A stretch of DNA of 64,000 nucleotides. Origin: Sinosporangium album (GTDB lineage: Bacteria > Actinomycetota > Actinomycetes > Streptosporangiales > Streptosporangiaceae). The stretch is taken from assembly GCF_900100605.1 (NCBI RefSeq), contig NZ_FNCN01000016.1, positions 1 to 64,000 on the forward strand, read 5' to 3'. Each line of letters begins with the position of its first letter. Position 1 is the stretch's first letter. Below, piece after piece: positions 7,614-35,676 of this stretch. Both the position numbers and the translations under genes were made by a program. The notes under the pieces are model-generated. The model ran no database searches and was not told the DNA's origin. It saw nothing but the letters and a program-made list of their open reading frames with translations.

Positions 7614-10088
7614 TCACCCACGCGGTTCTCCCTGCCTTCCACCGCCCTCGGTCCGCCTGCCGAGGCCGTCGGGCGCGGCCTGCGCCCCAGGGCTCACGGC
7701 GGGTGCGGGCGGGGCCGTGGGCTCGGCGGGACGCCTGTGGTTGCGTACGAGGGCGACGACGGCGGTCAGCACTCCGGCGGCGACGATGCCGAGGCCGAGG
7801 GCGGTGAGATCGTTGACCACGTCGCCCGGCTGGAGCGCGAACAGGTCACGCGTGAACGGCAGCGCCATGGCCAGCATGAACAGTCCGGCCATGGACGCCA
7901 CCAGGGCGACCCGCCACCAGGTCACGGCCCTGCCGGAGGGCGTCGTCTCGACGTACGGCCTGGCGATGAGGACCAGCACCCACCACGAGGCGACGAACAG
8001 GGTGATCACGCCCGCCGTACGCGCGAGGGTGAGATCGGGGGAGTACACGTGCGCGAGGGCGAACGACCCGAAGGTGGCCAGCGCGCAGGTCACTCCGGCC
8101 GGTACGGCAAAGCGCAGCACACGCCGTACGAACCCCGGGCGTGAGCGCTCGACGCATGGGGCGAGGGCGAGGAAGAACGCGGGGATGCCGATGGTGAACG
8201 CGTTGACCAGGGTGGAGTGGCGTGGCGCGAACGGGAAGGCCAGGCCGACGACGCCGGTGAGCAGGGATAGCACGATCGCGTAGAACGTCTTGGTCAGGAA
8301 GAGGTTCGACACCCGTTCGATGTTGGCGAGCACCCGGCGGCCCTCGCCGACGACGTGGGGGAGCGTCGCGAAGCTGTCGTCGAGCAGGACGACCTGGGCG
8401 ACGGCCTTGGTGGCCCCGCTGCCCGAGCCCATGGCGACGCCGAGGTCGGCGTCTTTCAGCGCGAGCACGTCGTTGACCCCGTCGCCGGTCATGGCCACGG
8501 TGTGTCCGCGTGACTGGAGCGCGCTGACGAACAGGCGTTTCTGCTGCGGGCTGACCCGGCCGAAGACGGTGTGGGTCTCCAGGATCTCGGCGAGTTTGTG
8601 CTGGTCGTCTTCCGGGAGGGTGCGGGCGTCGATGGCCCGGTCTCCGCCGGGGATGTTCAGGGAGGTGGCGATGGCCGCGACGGACTCGGGGTTGTCACCC
8701 GAGATGATCTTCAGGGTGACGTTCTGCTTGGCGAAGTAGGCGAGGGTCTCGGGGGCTTCGGGCCGGATGCGCTGGCTCAGCGTGACCAGGGCGGCGGCCG
8801 ACAGCGGGCCGAGCTCGTCGGGGCGGGCGAGGGCGCCGTCATCGGCCCGGCACAGGGCCAGCACGCGCAGGCCGGTGGTGGCCAGGTCGGCGGCGGCGCC
8901 GTACCCGGGGGTGCCTGGTTCGAGCAGGATGTCGGGGGCGCCGAGCACCCAGGCGCCGTGCGTCTCGAACTCGGTGCCGCTCCACTTGCGGGCGGAGGAG
9001 AACGGCACGCTGGCCCGGGCGATCCAGCCGGGGGAGTCGTCGTAGCGCGCCCGGACGGCCAGAGCGGTGGCGTTGGGCCTCGGGTCGGCGTTGGCGAGCG
9101 CCGCGAGCGCGTCGTGCACGGGAAGGCGGTCATCCAGGACGATCACCTCGGAGAGGTCCATGCCGCCGGCGGTGAGGGTGCCGGTCTTGTCGAGGCAGAG
9201 GACGTCCACCCGGGCCAGACCCTCGATGGCCGGAAGCTCCTGGATAAGGCATTTGCGACGGCCGAGGCGGATCACGCCGACGGCGAACGCGATGCTGGTC
9301 ATCAGCACGAGTCCTTCGGGGATCATCGTCACGATCCCGGCCACCGCGCTGGTGAGGGCTTCGGAGAAGGTCGTGTCGCGCCGGAGCTGACTGTAGATCA
9401 GCAGCAGGCCGATGGGGATCACGAGCCACGTGATGTATTTGATGAACTTGTTGACGCCGTCGCGAAGCTCGGAGTGGGCGAGGGAGAACCGGCTGGCCTC
9501 CTCCGAGAGCCTGGCGGCGTAGGCATCTCGCCCGACCTTGGTCGCGATATAGCCGCCGACGCCGGCCACGACGAAGCTCCCGGAGAGCACGGAAGCGCCC
9601 GGCTGCTTGTGCACCGGGTCGGCCTCGCCCGTGAGGAGCGACTCGTCGATCTCCAGCCCGTGCGAGGAGGTGACCTCGCCGTCCACGAGCAGCCGGTCGC
9701 CGGGGCCCAGCAGTACGAGGTCGCCGAGCACCACCTCCCGGGGTGGAATCTCCCGTTCGGTGTCGTCGCGGCGCACCCGCACGGGCACTTCACCTACGAC
9801 GGCGAGCCGGTCGAGGGTGCGCTTGGCGCGCACCTCCTGCACGATGCCGATGCCCGTGTTGGCTACGATGATCAGGCCGAAGAGGCTGTCCTGCCACGCG
9901 CCGAAGACCAGGATCAGCACCCACAGCACGCCGATCACCGCGTTGAACAGGGTGAAGACGTTCGCGCGGACGATGGCGCCGTAGGACCTACTCGATCTGC
10001 GGGGCAGGTCGTTCACCTGACCCGCCGCGACCCTGCGTGTCACCTCCGCAGAGGTGAGTCCTGTCCTCGTCTGTCCGCGGCTGACCAC
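7614..10088 (-). CDS. ctpE: P-type cation ATPase, CtpE-like
   Basis: This 824-residue membrane pump is of the HAD/P-type ATPase family. The phosphorylation site is DKTGTLT at residue 300, the actuator motif is TGEAD near 153, the membrane motif is PEGL at 257-260, and the hinge is MTGDGVNDVLALKDADLGVA. Hydrophobic segments lie at about 45-85, 220-240, 245-270 and in a C-terminal cluster of about six. PEGL with VNDVLALKDADLG matches mycobacterial CtpE, which is linked to calcium uptake and cell-wall integrity. The substrate here is inferred from that resemblance. It lacks N-terminal heavy-metal CxxC domains. It lies between plsX and argS on the same strand. Confidence 0.9.
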   Translation of the reverse strand: MVSRGQTRTGLTSAEVTRRVAAGQVNDLPRRSSRSYGAIVRANVFTLFNAVIGVLWVLILVFGAWQDSLFGLIIVANTGIGIVQEVRAKRTLDRLAVVGEVPVRVRRDDTEREIPPREVVLGDLVLLGPGDRLLVDGEVTSSHGLEIDESLLTGEADPVHKQPGASVLSGSFVVAGVGGYIATKVGRDAYAARLSEEASRFSLAHSELRDGVNKFIKYITWLVIPIGLLLIYSQLRRDTTFSEALTSAVAGIVTMIPEGLVLMTSIAFAVGVIRLGRRKCLIQELPAIEGLARVDVLCLDKTGTLTAGGMDLSEVIVLDDRLPVHDALAALANADPRPNATALAVRARYDDSPGWIARASVPFSSARKWSGTEFETHGAWVLGAPDILLEPGTPGYGAAADLATTGLRVLALCRADDGALARPDELGPLSAAALVTLSQRIRPEAPETLAYFAKQNVTLKIISGDNPESVAAIATSLNIPGGDRAIDARTLPEDDQHKLAEILETHTVFGRVSPQQKRLFVSALQSRGHTVAMTGDGVNDVLALKDADLGVAMGSGSGATKAVAQVVLLDDSFATLPHVVGEGRRVLANIERVSNLFLTKTFYAIVLSLLTGVVGLAFPFAPRHSTLVNAFTIGIPAFFLALAPCVERSRPGFVRRVLRFAVPAGVTCALATFGSFALAHVYSPDLTLARTAGVITLFVASWWVLVLIARPYVETTPSGRAVTWWRVALVASMAGLFMLAMALPFTRDLFALQPGDVVNDLTALGLGIVAAGVLTAVVALVRNHRRPAEPTAPPAPAVSPGAQAAPDGLGRRTEGGGRQGEPRG

Positions 10089-11498: not shown

Positions 11499-12818
11499 GT
11501 GATCCTGGATCAGAGGGGCGGGGACCGATTCCGGGCCTACTCCACTAAACATCTGGACGAACTCCTCCGACGCGCCGACCTCGGCGAGGAGGAGCGACTC
11601 CGGATCAGGGCGGTGGCCACCGTGCTGCCGTTCCGTACCAACACCTACGTCGTGGAAGACCTCATCGACTGGTCCAACGTGCCCTGCGACCCGATATACC
11701 GACTGGTCTTCCCTCAGGCGGACATGCTGCCTGAAGCCGATGTCGTACGGCTGGCGGCCATGCTGCGTGACGAGGTCCCCGCTCGGGAGCTCAACGCCGC
11801 GGCGCACGAGGTGCGCATGAAGCTCAACCCGCAGCCGGCGGGCCAACTCGATCTGAACATGCCGCGCCTGGGCGCGGAGCCCCTGCCGGGCATGCAGCAC
11901 AAGTATCCAGAGACCGTGCTCTTCTTCCCTAAGCAGGGGCAGACCTGCCACGCCTACTGCACCTACTGCTTCAGGTGGGCGCAGTTCGTCGACGAGCCGG
12001 AGCTGAAGATGGCCTCGGGGGACGTCGAGTCGCTGGTGGCCTACCTCCAGGCCCACCCCGAGGTGACGAGCGTGCTGCTCACCGGGGGAGACCCGATGAT
12101 CATGAGGGGGACGGTCCTCAAGCGCTACATCGAACCCCTCCTCGAACTCAAGCAACTCGAATCCATCCGCATCGGCACGAAGTCGCTCGCGTACTGGCCG
12201 CAGCGCTTCGTCACCGACCCTGACGCCGACGAGACCCTGGAGCTGTTCTCGCGGGTGACCAAGGCGGGCAAGAACCTGGCGTTCATGGCCCACTTCTCGC
12301 ACCCCCGCGAGATGGAACCCGAGATTGTGGAACGTGCCGTGTCCAGAATCCTCGACACGGGAACCGTGATCAGGACCCAGGCACCCCTGATCCGCACGGT
12401 CAACGACAGCCCTGACGTGTGGTCGGTCATGTGGCGGCGCCAAGTCACGCTGGGCATGGTGCCGTACTACATGTTCGTAGAACGTGACACAGGCCCGCAG
12501 GACTACTTCGCGGTGCCGCTGGCGAGGGCCTACGAGATCTTCCGCGACGCCTACGCGGGCGTGTCGGGGCTATGCCGTACGGCCAGGGGACCGTCGATGT
12601 CGGCCACGCCGGGCAAGGTGTGCGTGGACGGTATCGCGGAGATCGGGGGGCAGCGGGTGTTCGTGCTCCACCTCATCCAGGCGCGAGACCCGGCACTCGT
12701 GGGGAGGCCGTTCTTCGCGAGATACGACCCTCAGGCCACCTGGCTCACCGACCTCCGCCCGGCTTTCGCGGACCGCTTCCCCTTCGACGCGGTGGCGGAC
12801 AGGCGAATCTCGGCCTGA
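11499..12818 (+). CDS. KamA-family radical SAM protein (lysine 2,3-aminomutase-like)
   Basis: This 439-residue protein has a radical SAM cluster motif CxxxCxxC at C150, C154 and C157 (in KQGQTCHAYCTYCFRW). The preceding KYPETVLFFP stretch has the layout of lysine 2,3-aminomutases, and LLTGGDPMIM gives the glycine-rich SAM contact. A C-terminal TPGKV could hold the PLP-binding lysine, but it is shorter than the canonical PGGGGK. The family moves an alpha-amino group to the beta carbon through a 5'-deoxyadenosyl radical and PLP. The substrate here is unknown. The start is GTG with AAGGGG upstream. No lysine degradation or antibiotic genes are adjacent, so it seems to be a single-gene unit. Confidence 0.85.
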   Translation: MILDQRGGDRFRAYSTKHLDELLRRADLGEEERLRIRAVATVLPFRTNTYVVEDLIDWSNVPCDPIYRLVFPQADMLPEADVVRLAAMLRDEVPARELNAAAHEVRMKLNPQPAGQLDLNMPRLGAEPLPGMQHKYPETVLFFPKQGQTCHAYCTYCFRWAQFVDEPELKMASGDVESLVAYLQAHPEVTSVLLTGGDPMIMRGTVLKRYIEPLLELKQLESIRIGTKSLAYWPQRFVTDPDADETLELFSRVTKAGKNLAFMAHFSHPREMEPEIVERAVSRILDTGTVIRTQAPLIRTVNDSPDVWSVMWRRQVTLGMVPYYMFVERDTGPQDYFAVPLARAYEIFRDAYAGVSGLCRTARGPSMSATPGKVCVDGIAEIGGQRVFVLHLIQARDPALVGRPFFARYDPQATWLTDLRPAFADRFPFDAVADRRISA

Positions 12819-13418
12819 TTTGCGGCTGTCACGGTCAAGTCGGCGTCTGCCAACCGGAAAATCTGCAAGCGCTCGTCACCGTGCCTGTTTTCCCGGTGGT
12901 TTCCGGCTGTTTTCCAGCATATTGGAAAGCGGTTGTGCGTGGCGATAAGGGTTAACCGGTGAATGTGCGGTGGGGGATGGCCGGAAACGGGTCCGCATGC
13001 TGATTTTCGGCCCCGACCCGGGGTGCTCACGTCCCGGGCGAGGCTGCCTCCAGAAGGGGCTCATATGCCTCTGACCTGGTATCACGCGGCCCATAGGGTC
13101 CTTGGGTGCCGCCGCCTGCGGTGATACAAATACCCGAGCAAGTGAGCCGGAACGCACGCTCCGTGGATGGTGCCCCACGGCGAGTGCTTTTTCGTCCTCG
13201 GGTGCCCGCCTGTCGGTCGGTCGCCTCGGACAGGTGCATGGCCTGGCCGTCAGGCGGCCCTTCGGTGCGGCTCGCCGACCGGATGGAGAATGCTCAGTGC
13301 GCCACCGGTTTACGGGGGATTGATTCATGTTTCGAAGTTTCCGTCCCGATGGCAGCCACGCCTTGCGGGCCGGATGCGGAGAAAGCTGAATCGCTTAACA
13401 AGCCGGGAGGCTTTCGTC
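12819..13418 (+). other. 600-base leader region of the His-rich gene
   Basis: No gene is visible in this stretch. It is probably the 3' end of the KamA transcript plus the promoter and long leader of the histidine-rich repeat gene. Several GC-rich inverted segments are present around 12990-13035 (for example CCCGACCCGGGGTGC followed by CACGTCCCGGG). I looked for known riboswitch cores and found none. The final element is GGGAGG at 13405-13410, a strong ribosome binding site eight bases before the ATG at 13419. Confidence 0.5.
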
Positions 13419-15857
13419 ATGAATAGAGCGCTTCAGGTGGCGGTGGTAACGGCGGGCTTCGGCCTCGCTGCGGCCTTCGCCGCACCGGTCCAGGCGCAGT
13501 CCGCCTCGATCGACGGCCCGCTGCCCGGGGAGGTCACCTCCCCGATCGCGGCCGACAGGATGGCCCACCCGATGTCCCACGTCGTCACCCAGGCCCACAA
13601 GCCGGGCTCCCCGCCGCCCAGCGCGGGGATCCTGGCGCCCGCGGGCCCGATCGGCGCGGTCCAGGGAGCCGTCCGCGACCGCGAGGTGTGGGCGCACGGC
13701 ATGCCGCAGGTGTGGCGTGACATGCCCACGTCTGCCCACACCGGGGCAAACACGATGGTCCGCGACATGGCGCACGCACAGGCCATCGTTCGCGACATGG
13801 CACATGCGGGCGCGCCCGTGCGTGACATGGCGCACTCCGCGCACTCCGCGGAGGTCAAGGCTCACGAGGCCGCGCAGGTCAAGGCCCACGAGGCCGCCCC
13901 GAGCGAGGCCCGTCGGGCCGCCGCCCAGGGTGAGGCTCAGCAGGCTGCCGAGCAGAAGGAGTGGAACGCTCCGCAGCGGGCCTTCGACATCCCGGCGTCG
14001 GCCCATGTGACAGCGGTACGCGAGCAGGGACACGCGCCCATGCGTGACTCTGGCCGGTCCATGCACTCCACCTGGCAGCAGCAGCCGGAGACGCCGAAGG
14101 AGCAGGCCCGCGACATCCCGATGCACGCGCAGGCCATGCCGGAGGCGGCTCGTCCGGCCGCAGAGGCCGCGCAGCAGGCCCAGCAGGCCCAGCAGGCCCA
14201 GCCTTTCGAGCACGTGGCCAAGCCCGGTCACTTCGCGAGGGCTGAGCAGCATGTGGCCAAGCCTGAGCAGGTGCAGGCTCACCAGGGTGAGCACTTCGCC
14301 CATGGGCAGCATGTGGTTCAGGGTGAGCAGGTTCAGCGGGAGCACGTGGCCAAGCCTGGTCACGTTGTTCAGGGTGAGCATGTCGCCCAGGCTCAGCACG
14401 AGGTGGCCAAGCCCGGTCACGCGGTGCGGCCCGAGCACGTCGCGCAGGCCGAGCAGGTGCAGGCTCACCAGGGTGAGCACTTCGCCCGTGGGCAGCATGT
14501 GGCCCAGGGTGAGCACTTCACGCACGGTCAGTACGTGGCCAAGCCCGAGCACATCGTGCGGGCCGAGCAGGTGCAGGCTCACCAGGGTGAGCACTTCGCC
14601 CATGGGCAGCATGTGGCCCAGGGTGAGCACTTCACGCACGGTCAGTACGTGGCCAAGCCCGAGCACATCGTGCGGGCCGAGCAGCATGTGGCCAAGCCTG
14701 AGCACATCGTGCGGGCCGAGCAGCATGTGGCCAAGCCCGAGCACATCGTGCGGGCCGAGCAGGTGCAGGCTCACCAGGGTGAGCACTTCGCCCATGGGCA
14801 GCATGTGGTTCAGGGTGAGCAGGTTCAGCGGGAGCACGTGGCCAAGCCTGGTCACGTTGTTCAGGGTGAGCATGTCGCCCAGGCTCAACACCAGGTGGCC
14901 AAGCCCGGTCACGTGGCCAAGCCCGAGCACATCGTGCGGGCCGAGCAGCATGTGGCCAAGCCCGAGCACATCGTGAGGGCCGAGCAGGTGCAGGCTCACC
15001 AGGGCGAGCACTTCGCCCACGGCCGGCACGTGGCTCAGGGCGAGCAGGCGAAGGCCCACCAGGGTCCCGTGCCGGCGCAGCCCGTGGTGGAGGCCCACCG
15101 CGGTGCCGAGCAGGGTGTCTGGCGTCCCGGTGTTCGTGAGTGGCAGGTGGCCGCCCACATCCCGGGCATGCCCACCGCGCAGCACCGTCCCGCGGCCGAG
15201 CCGGTGAGCTGGCAGGCGGTGTGGGTGGCCAAGCCCGTGAGCGGCGTCCCCGCGATGGGTGCCGGTGACGTGTTCAAGGAGTCGGTCGAGAAGATGGCCC
15301 GCGACATGAAGTGGGCCATGCAGGACGTGGAGCGTGCCATCCACGCGCTGTCGACGTCCGTCGGCCAGGCGTCCCACGTGATGTCCGCGGTCCACGGCCC
15401 GGCCGCTGCGGCCCAGCAGGCCGCTCCGTCGGCGGCTCAGGCCGCGTGGCAGGGCGCTGCCGCCGCTCAGGCCGACCAGGTCCGCGAGATGGCGGGTCAG
15501 GCTCGGAACAAGGCGGCGTGGTCGGGCATGGTCTCGGCTCCGCAGGCCGGTGACAAGGCCGCGTGGTCGGCTGCGGCTCCGGTGGTCAAGGCGTGGGAGG
15601 CCGTCGGCCGGGTGCACGACATGGTCGCCCAGGCTCAGGTCACCGCCGCGCAGGGCCGTGACAAGGCCGCCTGGTGGGCTTCGGCCCCCGCGGCCGAGGC
15701 GTGGAACGCTGCCGGGCAGGCGCGCGACATGGCCGCTCCCGCTCGTGACAAGGCGGCGGCCCCGGTCGCCCAGCCGGTCGCGGTCAAGGAGGCTCAGGCC
15801 ATCGCCGAGGTCGCGGCACCGCTGATCAAGGCTGTCGCTCCGCAGACGGGCAGCTGA
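13419..15857 (+). CDS. Secreted histidine-rich tandem-repeat protein
   Basis: I do not recognise any known family in this 812-residue protein. A Sec signal peptide spans residues 1-26 (positive MNR, hydrophobic VAVVTAGFGLAAAFAA, cleavage after VQA). Residues ~95-145 carry RDMAHA-like motifs, and ~145-260 are Ala/Glu/Gln-rich and helical-looking. Residues ~262-550 are built from near-identical units such as HVAKPEHIVRAEQ (13 residues) and a 38-residue module with 7 histidines. The C-terminal ~260 residues carry DKAAW/KAWEA repeats rich in Ala and Trp. There is no LPxTG motif, lipobox or C-terminal membrane segment, so it is probably released or held non-covalently in the envelope. The start is fixed by GGGAGG eight bases upstream. 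A strong hairpin follows the gene. Metal binding is plausible from His density but unproven. Confidence 0.85.
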   Translation: MNRALQVAVVTAGFGLAAAFAAPVQAQSASIDGPLPGEVTSPIAADRMAHPMSHVVTQAHKPGSPPPSAGILAPAGPIGAVQGAVRDREVWAHGMPQVWRDMPTSAHTGANTMVRDMAHAQAIVRDMAHAGAPVRDMAHSAHSAEVKAHEAAQVKAHEAAPSEARRAAAQGEAQQAAEQKEWNAPQRAFDIPASAHVTAVREQGHAPMRDSGRSMHSTWQQQPETPKEQARDIPMHAQAMPEAARPAAEAAQQAQQAQQAQPFEHVAKPGHFARAEQHVAKPEQVQAHQGEHFAHGQHVVQGEQVQREHVAKPGHVVQGEHVAQAQHEVAKPGHAVRPEHVAQAEQVQAHQGEHFARGQHVAQGEHFTHGQYVAKPEHIVRAEQVQAHQGEHFAHGQHVAQGEHFTHGQYVAKPEHIVRAEQHVAKPEHIVRAEQHVAKPEHIVRAEQVQAHQGEHFAHGQHVVQGEQVQREHVAKPGHVVQGEHVAQAQHQVAKPGHVAKPEHIVRAEQHVAKPEHIVRAEQVQAHQGEHFAHGRHVAQGEQAKAHQGPVPAQPVVEAHRGAEQGVWRPGVREWQVAAHIPGMPTAQHRPAAEPVSWQAVWVAKPVSGVPAMGAGDVFKESVEKMARDMKWAMQDVERAIHALSTSVGQASHVMSAVHGPAAAAQQAAPSAAQAAWQGAAAAQADQVREMAGQARNKAAWSGMVSAPQAGDKAAWSAAAPVVKAWEAVGRVHDMVAQAQVTAAQGRDKAAWWASAPAAEAWNAAGQARDMAAPARDKAAAPVAQPVAVKEAQAIAEVAAPLIKAVAPQTGS
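14271..14912 (+). repeat. Nested near-identical coding repeats in the His-rich gene
   Basis: A 150-base block at 14271-14420 recurs at 14763-14912 with only two mismatches (near GCTCAGCACG versus GCTCAACACC). Between them lies a 114-base tandem pair (14457-14570 and 14571-14684, one mismatch), followed by two 39-base units (14685-14723 and 14724-14762, one mismatch). All units are multiples of three, so the reading frame is kept. Identity extends to synonymous positions, pointing to recent duplication or gene conversion. Confidence 0.95.
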
Positions 15858-15938
15858 CGGTCGGAGTCGGCCTTGAAGGGGTGACCTGACAGGCCGAGGC
15901 GCCGCAACACGCGCTGTGACATGCGCTGCAACACAGGG

Positions 15939-15971
15939 CCGGGGCCCAGGGACGCTGTCCCTGGGCCCCGG
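15939..15971 (+). terminator. Strong terminator of the His-rich gene
   Basis: A perfect 15-bp stem (CCGGGGCCCAGGGAC pairing with GTCCCTGGGCCCCGG) has a 3-base loop GCT and sits 82 bases after the stop codon. The next gene is on the opposite strand and ends at 15999, so the hairpin may serve both transcripts. Confidence 0.85.
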
Positions 15972-15998
15972 TTCGCCGTGTGGGCCGACCCCCCCGGG

Positions 15999-16160
15999 TC
16001 AGATGTGCGGTGCCCGGACCCAGGTGCGCCGGGCTATCTGGACCTGCAGCCGGGCCATTTGCCGGTGCAGCTCGACGAGTTGCTCGACCAGTTTGGCGCG
16101 AGGCAGCTCGGATGGGTCCTCGGCGGCCAGATGGTCGATCGCGGAAGACAGCTCAAGCAT
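15999..16160 (-). CDS. Small DUF222-like protein
   Basis: This 53-residue protein reads MLELSSAIDHLAAEDPSELP at its start, followed by a charged helix (LVEQLVELHRQMARLQVQIA). The pattern resembles the N-terminal helical part of DUF222/HNH endonuclease proteins of actinobacteria, but the nuclease part is absent. I chose the internal ATG at 16160 because GGAGGG lies five bases upstream. The longer frame starting at 16211 has no such site. It could be a stand-alone small coiled-coil protein or a remnant of a longer gene. Its function is unknown. Confidence 0.5.
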   Translation of the reverse strand: MLELSSAIDHLAAEDPSELPRAKLVEQLVELHRQMARLQVQIARRTWVRAPHI

Positions 16161-16297
16161 CGTGCCCTCCAAAGTCGCGAGCTTGTGGTGTGAGCCGACG
16201 CGTTGACGCATCGTCTCGAATAGACGTTCGAATGCTATCGGAAATCCGCGTGACCCGTTGGCATATACGACGCCGGTGTGGCGGGATCGGTTTAGCC

Positions 16298-16831
16298 TCA
16301 GGACTCGTAGATCGGCGCGATGTAGCCGCGGGCGAGGGTGTTCGCGGTGATGTTGAAGCCGACGAGGGCGGGGGGCGTGTCGCTGTCCACGCCGAGGCGG
16401 TCGACGCCGAGGGCGTGCACGGCGAACAGGTAGCGGTGCGGGGAGCCGGGCGGGGGCGCGGCTCCGCCGTACTCCTTCCTTGGGTAGTCGTTGCGGGTGT
16501 GGACCGCACCCGTGGGAAGGCCCTTGAAGTCGCCGCTGCCGGCGCCGGAGGGCAGCTCGGTGATCTCGGGCGGCAGGTCGATGAGCAGCCAGTGCCAGAA
16601 GCCGCTGCCGGTCGGGGCGTCGGGGTCGAAGCAGGTGACCGCGTAGCTCTTGGTGCCGCTCGGGGCGCCGGACCAGCGCAGGTGGGGGGAGATGTTCTGG
16701 CCCTTCATGCCCCAGTCGTTGAAGACGTGCTTGTCCGAGAGGCGTTCGCCGTCGCGGATGTCGTCGCTTTCGACGGTGAGGGCGGGGACTTCGGGCAGGT
16801 AGTCGTAGGGGATCGGCGGTTGTTTGGACAC
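16298..16831 (-). CDS. YbhB/YbcL-type PEBP (Raf kinase inhibitor-like) protein
   Basis: This 177-residue protein belongs to the phosphatidylethanolamine-binding protein fold. Visible family features are GQNISPHLRWSGAP (about residues 44-57), CFDPDAPTGSGFWHWLLIDL with the conserved DPDAP and HW (about 67-86), and GGAAPPPGSPHRYLFAVHAL in the C-terminal half. The bacterial members bind small anionic ligands, and their physiological role is mostly unknown. No signal peptide is seen, so it is likely cytoplasmic. It stands alone between a small gene and the exporter genes. Confidence 0.92.
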   Translation of the reverse strand: MSKQPPIPYDYLPEVPALTVESDDIRDGERLSDKHVFNDWGMKGQNISPHLRWSGAPSGTKSYAVTCFDPDAPTGSGFWHWLLIDLPPEITELPSGAGSGDFKGLPTGAVHTRNDYPRKEYGGAAPPPGSPHRYLFAVHALGVDRLGVDSDTPPALVGFNITANTLARGYIAPIYES

Positions 16832-16956: not shown

Positions 16957-17787
16957 TCAGCCCTTGTTGTAGGCGGCGAGGACCGTCTCGGGGTCGCCGT
17001 CCATCCGGATCTTGCCCTTGTGCAGCCAGATGACCCTGTTGCAGGTCTCCTCGATCACGTCGAGGTTGTGCGCGACGAGGAAGACGGTGCCGGCCTCGGC
17101 GCGCATCTGCTTGATGCGCTCCTGGCTCTTGCGCTTGAATTCGCGGTCGCCGGTGGCGAGGGCCTCGTCGATGAGCAGTACGTCGTGGGTCTTGGCCGAG
17201 GCGATGGCGAAGCGGAGCCGCGCTCCCATTCCGGACGAATAGGTGGACATGGGAAATTGGACGAAATCCCCGATGCCGGAGAAGTCGACGATGGCATCGA
17301 ATCGCTGCTTGACCTGTGTGGGGTTCATGCCCATGGCGTAGCAGCCGAGGACGATGTTGCGCTCTCCGGTCAACTCGCGCATGAGAGCGGCGTTGACGCC
17401 CAGCAGGGAGGGCTGGCCGTCGGTGTAGACGGCGCCCTTGTGCGGGGGGAGCAATCCGGCGATCGCTCGCAGAAGGGTCGACTTGCCGGAGCCGTTGCGG
17501 CCGACGATGCCGATGGCGTCACCGTGGTAGGCCACGAACGACACGCCCTTGACGGCGTGGACCTCTTTCATCTGGGGGCGGCCCTGCCTGCGGAGGAGGC
17601 GCATGAGGGCGTTGGCGGCGTTGCCTTTCTCCTGGTCGGTCGTGGCGCCGTAGACGCGGTAGACGATGTGCAGGTCGTCGACGATGACCGTGGGGGTGCC
17701 AGTCGGTTCGGGGGCCGGGCGCGGCGGGGACTTCGGGGTCTGCTGGGATTCCTCCACAGGGAACAGCTCCTTGGTCAGCTCAGCCAC
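16957..17787 (-). CDS. ABC exporter ATPase for cell-surface polysaccharide (RfbE/TagH type)
   Basis: This 276-residue ATPase has Walker A GRNGSGKST, signature YSSGMGARLRFAIA and Walker B VLLIDEALATGD, followed by the switch histidine in VAHNLD. The short helical domain and the YSSGM signature are typical of the Wzt/TagH/RfbE subfamily. That subfamily exports O-antigen, teichoic acid or, in mycobacteria, galactan-type polymers across the membrane. The N-terminus is Pro-rich. The gene start overlaps the end of the permease gene by eight bases, so the two form one exporter operon. No glycosyltransferases are adjacent to identify the polymer. Confidence 0.92.
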   Translation of the reverse strand: MAELTKELFPVEESQQTPKSPPRPAPEPTGTPTVIVDDLHIVYRVYGATTDQEKGNAANALMRLLRRQGRPQMKEVHAVKGVSFVAYHGDAIGIVGRNGSGKSTLLRAIAGLLPPHKGAVYTDGQPSLLGVNAALMRELTGERNIVLGCYAMGMNPTQVKQRFDAIVDFSGIGDFVQFPMSTYSSGMGARLRFAIASAKTHDVLLIDEALATGDREFKRKSQERIKQMRAEAGTVFLVAHNLDVIEETCNRVIWLHKGKIRMDGDPETVLAAYNKG

Positions 17788-18715
17788 GGCCGTACCTCTC
17801 CTCGGCCCGCCAGAAGTACCAGAAACCGAAGAACAGCGCGAACACTGCCCAGAATACGCAAGCGAACCAGATCCACGGGCGGGGGGAGTGGTCCTGGATC
17901 AGAATGTCGCGCATGGCCTCGATATAGGCGGCGGCCGGGTTGGCGTACATGATTTCGGCGACCCATTGGGGCAGACCTGCGCTCTGGACCACCTTGTCCT
18001 GGATGGAAAAGAACACGCCGGAGGTGTACAGCCAGGTGCGCATAATGAACGGCAGGAGCTGGTTCAGGTCTCGGGCGCTCGCGCCGACACGCGCGAGCAC
18101 CAGGCTTGCGCCCAGGTTGAAGAAGGTCTGAAGCGTCAGCACGACCGGGATGAGCAGCCAGGCGAGGGTGATGGGCTCCCCAGTGATCAGCACCAGGCCG
18201 AACAGGATTCCCATAGAGATCAGGAGCTGCTGGAGCTCCTGGATGGTGTACGCCAACGGCAGTGCGGCCCGGGGGAAGTGCAGTGCCCTGATCAGCGACA
18301 GGTTGCCTGAGATCGATTTGGCACCGCCCGTCACCGAGCGCTGGGTGAAGGTGAAGACGAACATCCCGGTGATCAGGAATGCCGGGTAATTTTCGATGTC
18401 CTTGCTCGCGCCCAGGATGAGGCCGAACATCAGCCAGTAGATGAGGGCGTTGAGCAGGGGCGTCAGAACCTGCCAGAGCTGGCCGAGCGCAGAGTTGCTG
18501 TACTTGGAGACGTTGCGCGAGGTCGCGTACGTCATGATGAAGTGCCGTCGTTCCCACAGTTGGCGCAGGTAGACGGGCAGACTGGGGCGTGCGATGGCAC
18601 GCCGAAGTCCGTAGCGTTTGGCGAGCTTGGCCAGTGGCTCCTTGCCCCATGGGGGGGTGCCGCCATTCCGGCCGCCCGCCTGGGCGTCCGCGATGGCGGA
18701 TTCCGGCTGGCTCAT
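17780..18715 (-). CDS. ABC exporter permease for cell-surface polysaccharide (RfbD/TagG type)
   Basis: This 311-residue ABC-2 permease shows about six membrane segments, including LLNALIYWLMFGLILG, FLITGMFVFTF and a C-terminal IWFACVFWAVFALFFGFWYF. The cytoplasmic N-terminus carries the family stretch LWERRHFIMTYATSRNVSKY. I start at the ATG at 18715 (MSQPESAIADAQ). The longer frame to 18847 has an implausible N-terminus. With the overlapping ATPase it should form a two-gene polysaccharide exporter, as in the rfbD/rfbE pair of mycobacteria. Confidence 0.9.
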   Translation of the reverse strand: MSQPESAIADAQAGGRNGGTPPWGKEPLAKLAKRYGLRRAIARPSLPVYLRQLWERRHFIMTYATSRNVSKYSNSALGQLWQVLTPLLNALIYWLMFGLILGASKDIENYPAFLITGMFVFTFTQRSVTGGAKSISGNLSLIRALHFPRAALPLAYTIQELQQLLISMGILFGLVLITGEPITLAWLLIPVVLTLQTFFNLGASLVLARVGASARDLNQLLPFIMRTWLYTSGVFFSIQDKVVQSAGLPQWVAEIMYANPAAAYIEAMRDILIQDHSPRPWIWFACVFWAVFALFFGFWYFWRAEERYGRG

Positions 18716-19351: not shown

Positions 19352-20998
19352 ATGCGTGTTACTAAGGGCCTACAGCTAGTCGCCGGTACCGCGCTGTTGG
19401 CACTCGCGGTCGCCGCGTGTGGTGGCGGCAGTGGTACCCAGAAAGACGGTGCCGCCGGCGGCGGTGAGACGCCGGTCCGCATGAAGATCGGTGAACCGCA
19501 GAAGCTGTTCTACCCCGGGGACACCACTGAGACCGAAGGTTCGGAGGTCCTCGCTGCGATCTTCGCACCGTTGGTGAAGTACGACGAGAACAAGAAGCCT
19601 GTTGAGGACGTCGCGGAGTCGATCACGACGACCGACAACAAGGTGTGGACCGTCAAGCTCAAGCCGGGTTTCACCTGGCACAACGGTGAGCCCCTCATCG
19701 CGCAGAACTATGTAGATGCCTGGAACTTCGCCGCCAACCAGGACAACGGCCAGCGCAGCAGCTACTTCTTCGGCCGGGTCGACGGCTACAAGGACGTGGC
19801 CCCGGGCGAGGGCAAGACGCCCACGAGCAAGACCATGAGGGGCCTTAAGGCCGTCGACGACACCACCTTCGAGGTCACCCTCACCGACCCGTTCTCGCAG
19901 TTCAAGACGATGCTCGGCTACACCGCCTTCTACCCGCTGCCCAAGGCCGCCTTCAACCCCTCGGGCAAGGTGACCGAGGAATTCGCCAAGAAGCCGATCG
20001 GCCAGGGCCTCTTCCAGATCGACAAGCCCTACAACAAGGGCACCGACGCGACGATCGACCTGACCCGCTTCGACAAGTATCCGGGCACGAAGCCGTCGTT
20101 CACCAAGCTTCAGTTCAAGGTCTACACCAGCGCGGAGACCTCCTACAACGACCTGCGCGCCGGCAACCTCGACATCCAGGACCAGCTTCCCGCCTCCGCC
20201 ATCGCGACCGCCAAGGCCGAGCTCGGTGACCGCTACCTCGACCAGCCTGACGCGGGCATCGGCTACATCGGGTTCCCGCTCAAGTCGAACAAGGAATTCC
20301 AGAACGCCAAGGTGCGTGAGGCCGTCTCCATGGCGATCGACCGGAAGACGATCGCCGAGACCGTCTTCTCCGGCACCCGCGCCCCCGCCGACGACTTCAT
20401 CAACCCGGCCATCGACGGCTACACCCAGGGCGCCTGCAAGGCCTGCGTCTATGACCCGACCAAGGCCAAGCAGCTGTACACCGAGGCGAACGGTCCGAAG
20501 AAGCTGGAGCTCGGCTACAACAACGACGGCGGCCACAAGGAGTGGGTCGAGGCCGTCGCCAACAACGTCCGCGCCGCCCTGGGCGTCGAGGTGGTGGTGA
20601 AGCCGTTTGAGAAGTTCGGCAACATTCTCGATGACCTGGATGCCGAGAAGTACACGGGCATGTTCCGCATCGGCTGGGCCGTCGACTATCCGTCTCCGGA
20701 GAACTACCTGACCCCGCTCTTCTCGACGGGGGCCATCGGCGGCGGCGGCTCGAACCACTCGCGCTACTCCAACCCCGAGTTCGACAAGCTCGTCGCCAAG
20801 GGAGACACCGCGGCCACGCCGGAAGAGGGCATCGAGTTCTACAAGCAGGCGAGCGCGATCCTGAACAAGGACCTGCCTTACATCCCCGTCTACTTCTACC
20901 GCCTCAACTCGGCCTTCTCCCAGCACGTCAAGGGCGTCAAGATCGACCTGCTCAACCACGTCGTCTGGACCGCTGTCACGAAGACGAGTGGGTCCTAG
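19352..20998 (+). CDS. Family-5 solute-binding lipoprotein of peptide/nickel-type ABC importer
   Basis: This 548-residue protein has a lipoprotein signal peptide (MRVTKGLQLVAGTALLALAV) and a lipobox ending in Cys23 (VAACGGG). The mature part is a family-5 (DppA/OppA/NikA fold) binding protein with motifs such as TWHNGEPLIAQNYVDAW, VREAVSMAIDRKTI, and the C-terminal YIPVYFYRLNSAFSQHVKG. It captures peptides, or possibly metal chelates, outside the membrane and hands them to the permeases encoded downstream. GAGGGAGGAT precedes the ATG. A 227-base gap separates it from the permease genes, long enough for mRNA processing or a second promoter. Confidence 0.93.
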   Translation: MRVTKGLQLVAGTALLALAVAACGGGSGTQKDGAAGGGETPVRMKIGEPQKLFYPGDTTETEGSEVLAAIFAPLVKYDENKKPVEDVAESITTTDNKVWTVKLKPGFTWHNGEPLIAQNYVDAWNFAANQDNGQRSSYFFGRVDGYKDVAPGEGKTPTSKTMRGLKAVDDTTFEVTLTDPFSQFKTMLGYTAFYPLPKAAFNPSGKVTEEFAKKPIGQGLFQIDKPYNKGTDATIDLTRFDKYPGTKPSFTKLQFKVYTSAETSYNDLRAGNLDIQDQLPASAIATAKAELGDRYLDQPDAGIGYIGFPLKSNKEFQNAKVREAVSMAIDRKTIAETVFSGTRAPADDFINPAIDGYTQGACKACVYDPTKAKQLYTEANGPKKLELGYNNDGGHKEWVEAVANNVRAALGVEVVVKPFEKFGNILDDLDAEKYTGMFRIGWAVDYPSPENYLTPLFSTGAIGGGGSNHSRYSNPEFDKLVAKGDTAATPEEGIEFYKQASAILNKDLPYIPVYFYRLNSAFSQHVKGVKIDLLNHVVWTAVTKTSGS

Positions 20999-25381: not shown

Positions 25382-25786
25382 CTAGCGCGCAGCGGTGTTG
25401 TGGAAGTGGTTGTGGTGGTGGTTGTGGTGGTGACCGTGGACGTGGCCGTGGACGTGGCCGTAGTGGCCGCCGTAGTAGCCGCCGACGAGGTGGCCGCCGA
25501 CGAGGTGGGCACCGATGTGGCCGCCGCCGATGTGGCCCCCGATGATGTGGCCGCCACCGATGTGTCCGCCACCGATGTGGCCGCCGATGTGCCCGCCCTT
25601 GTAGTGGTGGCCGCCGAACACGGACTGGATCGGCGACCCGAGGAGGCCGACGTTCAGGCAGTTAGCGACACCGATGAGGTTGTTGCTGCTGCAGTTTGAA
25701 CTGATGGTGTCAGCGGTGGCGGTCGCGGCAGGGCCGAAGACCGCGAGGCCGACGATGGCGGAGCCGGCGAGAATGCGACGGATCAT
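25382..25786 (-). CDS. Small secreted Gly/His-rich protein
   Basis: This 134-residue protein has a signal peptide (MIRRILAGSAIVGLAVFGPA, cleavage likely after ATATA near residue 25). A short conserved-looking part with Cys32 and Cys43 (SSNCSSNNLIGVANCLNVGL) follows. The second half is a Gly/His tract: histidines recur every five residues at 70, 75, 80, 85 and 90 (GGGHI-type units), ending in dense HVHGHVHGHHHNHHH. I count 23 histidines between residues 60 and 129. GGGGGA lies six bases before the ATG. The Cys-Asn-rich part slightly recalls small secreted surface proteins of sporulating actinomycetes, but I cannot assign a family. Divalent metal binding or a surface-structural role is possible; both are inferences. 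Confidence 0.8.
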   Translation of the reverse strand: MIRRILAGSAIVGLAVFGPAATATADTISSNCSSNNLIGVANCLNVGLLGSPIQSVFGGHHYKGGHIGGHIGGGHIGGGHIIGGHIGGGHIGAHLVGGHLVGGYYGGHYGHVHGHVHGHHHNHHHNHFHNTAAR

Positions 25787-35098: not shown

Positions 35099-35676
35099 CT
35101 TGGCTGTCGTTCAGCAAGAGCGTCGCGAGATCCGATAGATCACACGGCAACGCAGTCCGTGAGGATCTATCGGCGCCTCGTTGACTCGAACATCGGGCCC
35201 GGTTCATGCGCACCCCGCGCGAACCGGGCCCCATGCATGCGACACCTGAGAGCCTCCCTCGCGCCCGAGTCGGGTCACGTTCAGCGGACCGGATTTCGGA
35301 TCGGCGCTCGGCCCGGCCCTTCGCCTTGACCGGGCCTCCTGGTCTCCGCGGCCTCCTCCTGGGGGTCGGATCCGTTCCGGGGGCCTGATCCGCCGTGAGC
35401 AACGGCGGATGGGCCTTCAGCGTCTGGAATCGCCTTCACGTGGCTGCCGCCCTGCCGTGCCGCCCTGCCGTGCCGCCCTGCCGTACCGCCCTGCCGTACC
35501 GCCCTGCCGTGCCGCCCTGCCGTACCGCTCCCCGTCTCGGGACGACTTTCCGGCCCGTCTCCCGGCGTGCCCCCCGAGGGCGGGGAGCGTGGCGTTTGGG
35601 CATGAGGTGGGAGGAATAGGACGTGGCCTGGATGTGAATTCTTGCGAGCGTTTGGGGCAGGTCAGGGGGGATGGAG
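35099..35676. other. Intergenic region cspA to groEL with 13-bp repeats
   Basis: Nothing coding is visible. Features are a low-complexity tandem array at 35444-35528 and, at its end, the two CIRCE operators (listed separately). Confidence 0.5.
35444..35528. repeat. 13-bp tandem repeat upstream of groEL
   Basis: About six copies of a 13-base unit CCGCCCTGCCGTG, with CCGCCCTGCCGTA variants, lie head to tail. The array does not keep a gene and may be a slippage product. Confidence 0.8.

Follow-up and report, generated by a model that had tools for sequence, protein, structure and literature searches.

The first 64,000 nucleotides of contig NZ_FNCN01000016.1 of Sinosporangium album (forward strand), a stretch that we call the window, contain a gene for a histidine-rich repeat protein that had no recognisable family in a first-pass annotation and that we refer to as gene X. 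We found that gene X belongs to a locus of the Streptosporangiaceae in which a conserved upstream element, a leader and a conserved signal peptide precede a mature part that differs from lineage to lineage. Gene X occupies 13419..15857 of the window on the + strand, stop included, and in the list of open reading frames (ORFs) it translates to 812 residues. The predicted signal peptide (residues 1-26, 13419..13496) has an N-terminus, MNRALQVAVVTAGFGLAAAFAAPVQA, that is of the Sec type as read by eye and not by a signal-peptide program, and cleavage after AQA was likewise judged by eye. It is followed on the same strand by an N-terminal mature region (13497..14201) with three RDMAH motifs at residues 115, 125 and 135, by a His-rich hexapeptide repeat region (residues 262-551, 14202..15071), in which 47 of 290 residues are His within boundaries that we set ourselves, and by a C-terminal Ala/Trp region (15072..15854) that is predicted to be helical with low confidence and whose DKAAW repeat is a 108-bp unit in 1.8 copies with 78% match. 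These parts agree with the earlier description, and its figure of seven His in each 38-residue module is confirmed; the simpler underlying unit is the hexapeptide [EQG][HQY][VFIA]xx[GPA], with 27 of the 42 segments cut by this pattern being 6 long. The autocorrelation of the protein at lags 6, 12, 13 and 38 lies 4.8-9.4 standard deviations over shuffles. At the DNA level the repeat region contains near-exact units of 114 bp (2.2 copies) and 39 bp (2.9 copies), each with 97% matches, and therefore some of the expansion is recent.

The gene has the ribosome binding site that had been attributed to it, with GGGAGG 8 bases upstream of the ATG inside an extended Shine-Dalgarno sequence (AAGCCGGGAGGC, 13400..13411, +) that resembles that of the relatives described below (GAGCCGGGAAGGC). 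After the stop, folding gives an 18-bp GC hairpin (15936..15974, +) as the likely terminator, and this stretch folds at -48.3 kcal/mol (z -4.35). The hairpin has no U-tract, and a pattern scan found neither a T-tailed terminator nor a sigma-70-like promoter. The GC content at third codon positions (GC3) is 85.6% and consistent with coding, with nearly the same value (81.2%) in an antisense ORF; the two strands being this similar, what settles the strand is instead the conservation of signal peptide and leader among relatives. That this is a real expressed gene, as had been asserted, is backed indirectly by the same conservation, from which we infer the expression itself. The antisense frame, of 740 codons, is open through gene X (13395-15617, - strand), and the counterpart in Sinosporangium siamense likewise has one of 603 codons; both are likely a by-product of codon use.

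Gene X sits between a KamA-like gene (11499..12818, +), whose product we take to be a radical-SAM protein like lysine-2,3-aminomutase and which had no Pfam match at E ≤ 1e-5, and a convergent gene for a phosphatidylethanolamine-binding protein (PEBP; PF01161; 16298..16831, -). The two serve as upstream and downstream synteny anchors. Beyond the PEBP gene lie ABC-transporter ATPase and membrane genes (PF00005, PF01061; 16957..18847, -), presumably Wzt/Wzm. KamA-like matches at E ≤ 1e-100 are present in 126 of 150 genomes of the Streptosporangiaceae, and 80 of these, together with locus L003 and the window, gave 82 loci for comparison; 26 of the 82 stretches lack both a PEBP and a transporter anchor and were set aside, which leaves 56. 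One gene for a putative secreted protein lies in the gap at 34 of these 56 anchored loci, the window and L003 included. A gene was scored when an open frame began in a way that resembles a signal peptide; genes that have decayed or that start unusually escape this criterion, and the loci scored as lacking the gene include L109 with a gap of 5 kb, L140 with 1.5 kb, and L096 and L098 with about 870 bases. Mapped onto a tree of the neighbouring transporter ATPase, presence and absence take 6 changes against a shuffle mean of 17.6 (0 of 500 shuffles as low), a distribution that fits inheritance with several losses.

What these loci have in common begins upstream of the gene. Element 1 (GGTGATACAAATAC, 13120..13133, +) is a conserved promoter or leader element with the consensus GGTGATA[C/G]AAAT, and it may be a standard -10 promoter. 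Exact GGTGATASAAATNC occurs once in the 7.06-Mb genome, and that occurrence is element 1. A second conserved block, element 2 (CCACCGGTTTACGGGGGATTGATTC, 13302..13326, +), was located by leader alignment and aligns with GCCACGGCATACGGGGGTTATCGATTC of other genera. The shorter element TGATA[CG]AA lies upstream of 31 of the 34 locus genes, and for the remaining three (L083, L091, L094) the genome has a match to the leader model described below beside the KamA gene. Among 100 genomes of the Streptosporangiaceae there are 19 exact GGTGATASAAATNC sites in 18 genomes, compared with none for the reversed control pattern. Fourteen of the 19 are at the KamA-PEBP locus, three more precede such a gene beside PEBP, one (L154) precedes a second copy elsewhere and one (in G009) has no such gene, so that 18 of the 19 stand before a gene with a signal peptide of the family type. 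Across the class, exact GGTGATASAAATNC was found in 7 of 41 Streptosporangiaceae genomes and 6 of 353 others, against 3 control hits; the six outside genomes are small and all from one family.

The leader model, R1, matches at 92 places in 89 of 297 Streptosporangiaceae genomes and 14 of 68 genera, once per genome except in G076, which has four matches. All 30 hits that were opened (L171-L200) precede a predicted secreted gene with a signal peptide of the family type, several of the genomes hit having also supplied sequences to R1. Ten further loci were fetched, and nine gave a secreted gene; the tenth, L201, was read by eye because its element differs by one base. R1 has no match at E ≤ 1e-3 in either Sinosporangium genome, where the two elements are 190-191 bases apart, about 117 further than the 73 of L114 and L117. 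In a set of nine leaders chosen for alignment, element 1, element 2 (with its ACGGGGG block) and the block around the Shine-Dalgarno sequence can nevertheless be aligned. The family spans 17 genera, counting the R1 genera and the element-bearing g1 (Sinosporangium), g15 and g51. Between the elements a short hairpin has two pairs with double-sided changes and a covariation term of only -0.28 kcal/mol; this suggests a leader RNA structure, to which a palindromic operator is the alternative. Two off-locus R1 hits opened in G076 (L154 at C56:70727 and L201 at C36:98804) precede secreted proteins that are unlike each other, one of 554 residues and rich in Gly and the other of 145 residues with YGYSYGYGYSHGHGHG, and therefore the unit of leader and signal can duplicate with new cargo. 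The fourth G076 hit is on C22, at a contig end.

The second common feature is the signal peptide. That of gene X has a mean identity of 0.50 to those of 32 relatives, a value reached in 0 of 2000 shuffles, and four further signal peptides from this genome reach 0.21-0.24 in the same comparison. The only relative returned by the contig search, in Sinosporangium siamense NBRC 109515, is a syntenic orthologue that stands in the same position, after the KamA-like gene and before the convergent PEBP gene. The two orthologues share 93% identity in the signal peptide and 37% in the mature part, compared with 88% for the flanking PEBP of the two species. A signal peptide that is better kept than its mature part is in itself a weaker peculiarity than it may appear, as a solute-binding lipoprotein at 19352 used as control has about 96% identity in its signal peptide (by eye, up to the Cys) and 78% overall. 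The repeats of the two orthologues have changed. The strongest short periods are 6, 12-13 and 38 in gene X and 5 and 10 in S. siamense, and the unit is a pentapeptide in the latter. Despite this, the amino-acid composition of the two proteins agrees at r 0.97, the highest of the 33 comparisons made with the gene X protein.

Beyond the genus the mature part is turned over as well. We compared the mature parts of 49 members, namely the 34 locus genes and 15 opened later. With low-complexity sequence masked and a threshold of E 1e-3, similarity is found in 157 of 1176 pairs and the set falls into 14 unlinked classes; without masking 222 pairs are similar and 9 classes remain, and at E 1e-6 there are 16 classes with masking and 10 without. 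Whichever of these four settings is used, the two Sinosporangium proteins group with each other and with no other member. Even within genera 17 of 80 pairs (L204 left out) have no masked similarity, one of these being two paralogues of one genome. The repeats differ accordingly by locus: Ala-Pro-Glu in L076, Gly/Ala/Pro in L099, ANVNANLTA-like in L093 and L100, GGLGGVT in L104 and L110, GPMNGPKGG in L204, EADPAPI in L209 and APFNGQ in L210. The mature part also evolves fast. The ratio of nonsynonymous to synonymous divergence (dN/dS) was estimated for 21 chosen pairs, two of them with no PEBP value, and in all 19 pairs with both values it is higher in the mature part (0.35-1.17) than in PEBP (0.02-0.92), the values of distant pairs being rough since these align badly.

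In the database searches the gene X protein gave no significant match to any named family. Its best matches in Pfam (PF22021, E 0.33) and PHROGs (phrog_10512, E 0.25) are noise, NCBIfam and the PDB sequences gave nothing at E ≤ 1, and within its own genome the protein finds only itself at E ≤ 1e-3. Rfam gave four matches over 12700-16300 of the window, all far under the gathering scores and three of them on the terminator hairpin, and none at gathering score at the loci of six relatives. Among ten other relatives (eight and two) Pfam had no match above cut-off. The S. siamense orthologue matches the Pfam GETHR family (PF05671; E 7.4e-8, 32.1 bits against a cut-off of 22.4), which the gene X protein does not, and we read this match as compositional and no sign of common descent or function. 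Most of the weak matches among relatives (E 1e-4 to 0.1) are probably chance, and L006 and L007 were opened and rejected; L010 and L023 were opened and kept, and the weak matches that cover the signal peptide pointed to the family. The statement that the protein has no recognisable family is therefore true for the libraries searched and incomplete otherwise, as relatives exist both in the S. siamense orthologue and in the family that the leader and signal peptide define. In the open-access literature that we searched, most subscription journals being outside its coverage, we found no description of this family.

An AlphaFold2 model of the protein, built from the two Sinosporangium sequences, has a mean predicted local distance difference test score (pLDDT) of 34.6, with about 28 in the repeats and about 30-55 in the C-terminal helices. 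Such values are compatible with disorder. A Foldseek search of the PDB returned 82 matches with E up to 10 and none at E ≤ 0.001, and the model is too poor for this result to carry meaning. The composition allows more specific predictions. His makes up 6.9-8.8% of the Sinosporangium proteins and at most 1.7% of the other 32 family members, and relative to the mean of 32 relatives its frequency is 14 times higher in the gene X protein and 11 times higher in that of S. siamense. The predicted net charge goes from -7 at pH 7.5 to +46 at pH 5.5 in the gene X protein and from -3 to +34 in the S. siamense orthologue. In ten sampled relatives the same shift moves the predicted charge by at most 4, and therefore the pH switch would be a trait of Sinosporangium and not of the family. 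Metal binding or a pH response, both proposed in the earlier description, are thus plausible for the Sinosporangium protein, and metal binding would not be the family's common function.

The reading that we favor, with a probability of roughly 0.43, is that of an extracellular disordered polymer in which the make-up rather than the sequence is under selection. The locus would be a single-gene locus for a secreted protein, positionally conserved in part of the Streptosporangiaceae, with the element and leader preceding a gene of conserved signal peptide. What is exported would be a low-complexity bulk polymer, intrinsically disordered and belonging to the surface or matrix of hyphae or spores. 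Selection would act on its length, hydration and charge and not on its sequence, and lineages would for that reason have grown their own repeats through tandem duplication. The Sinosporangium polymer, rich in His, Gln, Glu and Lys, would be near-neutral at pH 7.5 and strongly positive near pH 5.5, and could in principle be cross-linked via metals.

Several points weigh against this proposal. The composition varies widely among genera, with r down to 0.30 against the gene X protein, and therefore no single physical property is common to the family. The gene was not found at 22 of the 56 anchored loci and so seems dispensable, and the intact frames at the other 34 are no evidence of function since only intact frames were counted, which lowers the odds of a selected polymer slightly. 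The structure model was built from two sequences, and an alignment this shallow is by itself enough to depress the pLDDT. One of the 19 pairs shows hardly any excess, its dN/dS being 0.99 for the mature part and 0.92 for PEBP. By eye we noted no wall-anchoring motif in the gene X protein, which may then diffuse away. Finally, the genome has chaplin genes elsewhere, and a sheath role is already partly filled.

Somewhat less probable, in our estimate, is a broader possibility, in which the fixed frame of element, leader and signal peptide is a standing slot where lineages repeatedly grow or exchange repeat polymers. Orthologous genes would then encode exported materials unrelated in sequence, with the pH-switching polymer of Sinosporangium as one such invention. 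The unmasked comparison, which merges some of the classes, lowers the odds of this possibility.

It is rather unlikely that the protein is primarily a metal scavenger or store, with His-rich repeats that capture extracellular Ni, Cu, Zn or Co for supply or detoxification. The mature part does contain 69 His, 47 of them within 290 residues, with 11 HxxH and 6 HxxxH pairs. In addition, a gene for a P-type (E1-E2) ATPase, a class that moves cations, lies three genes upstream of gene X, beyond the KamA-like gene and a PlsX-type gene (7614-10088, -), and we draw no link between the two. This idea has to contend with the lack of any HxH in the mature part, with the ten sampled relatives at the same locus, which have 0-4 His (the repeats of one further relative, L204, have some), and with Rfam, in which neither a metal-responsive nor any other family reaches threshold.

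Slightly less likely still is an arms race, in which a surface protein acting as phage receptor, decoy or predator-facing coat would be turned over through recognition. The divergence of the mature part beyond that of the flanking gene, the absence of the gene from several lineages, and the three loci L076, L209 and L099, which belong to one genus and have no detectable mature similarity when masked, are what such a conflict could leave behind. Turnover of low-complexity sequence accounts for the pattern by itself, however. Only two of the 21 pairs have a dN/dS above 1 (1.17 and 1.64), and both are poorly alignable (43% and 31% identity); no PADLOC model of anti-phage defence matched the gene X protein at E ≤ 0.01.

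We also doubt that function resides in the leader and signal peptide, whether as a regulatory RNA or as a fragment released from the signal peptide, with the mature protein drifting along as a passenger. Leader and signal peptide are indeed what the family has in common, two pairs of the leader hairpin change on both sides, and synonymous divergence is low in the signal peptide: pooled over ten pairs, the proportions of synonymous and nonsynonymous differences (pS/pN) are 0.081/0.019 in signal-peptide codons 2-26 and 0.254/0.198 in the mature part, with 0.153/0.039 for PEBP in the nine pairs having it. These codons offer few sites, however, and codons near the start are often constrained. The control lipoprotein has a signal peptide conserved to a similar degree between the two species, and a correlation of r 0.97 in composition at 37% identity speaks for a product that matters. 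The least probable reading is that a low-complexity gene, dispensable and without strong function, has simply drifted fast; this would agree with a dN/dS from 0.35 to above 1 and with the 22 loci without the gene, and gains slightly from the discounted intact frames, but it leaves unexplained an element and signal peptide kept over 17 genera as well as the conserved composition.

A conserved delivery frame with free cargo is thus a better description of gene X than an orphan repeat protein. To homology searches the proteins of this family look like orphans with no relation to each other, since databases do not compare the part that is conserved, namely the control region and export signal. Taken together, the versions of the locus amount to a natural collection of exported low-complexity proteins that have a common leader, and they make two questions testable: whether selection in bacterial matrix proteins acts on composition and not on sequence, and how new exported repeat proteins originate. 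The conserved and nearly single-copy leader suggests a so far undescribed regulator or RNA element, under which expression of the gene would be regulated.

Other features of the genome may be recorded here. The window encodes a small, probably secreted His/Gly-rich protein of 134 residues (25382-25786, -) with the repeats GGHIGGGHIGG and HVHGHHHNHHH, for which Pfam gave nothing at E ≤ 1. The same contig carries a paralogue (C32:106173-106394) with 81% identity across residues 1-75, and of the 80 Streptosporangiaceae genomes searched the other 79, S. siamense (G001) among them, gave no match at E ≤ 1e-6. At 35445-35528 of the window lies an array of 6.5 copies of the 13-bp unit TGCCGCCCTGCCG. 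Elsewhere in the genome, a 787-codon frame (G000:C14) has eight PF03777 chaplin matches in a row at 17311-18654 (L213-L219), and a single-domain chaplin is at C22:17672-17776.

Among known systems the chaplins and rodlins of Streptomyces are similar in being lineage-restricted secreted surface proteins of sporulating actinomycetes. According to PMC4255298, rodlins appear readily lost, obvious rodlins are confined to streptomycetes, and chaplin-like genes are reported in Streptosporangium roseum. Gene X differs in that its protein has no PF03777 match at E ≤ 1, which rules it out as a chaplin, and the nine PF03777 matches of its own genome are on two contigs where exact GGTGATASAAATNC is absent. 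A chaplin-like look of the paralogue L201 (G076:C36) is likewise unsupported, its only match being a spurious one of E 0.024 to another family. Likeness to the GETHR repeat holds for the S. siamense orthologue alone. The His-rich, phase-separating squid beak proteins (PMC6884462) offer a likeness of working only, as disordered His-rich repeat polymers; they are animal proteins with other repeats, and we claim no homology. Some archaeal and bacterial cell-surface proteins are likewise made of tandem repeats (PMC2447325). In those it is the repeat motifs that are conserved across proteins, whereas in the gene X family it is the leader and the signal peptide that are conserved across genera.

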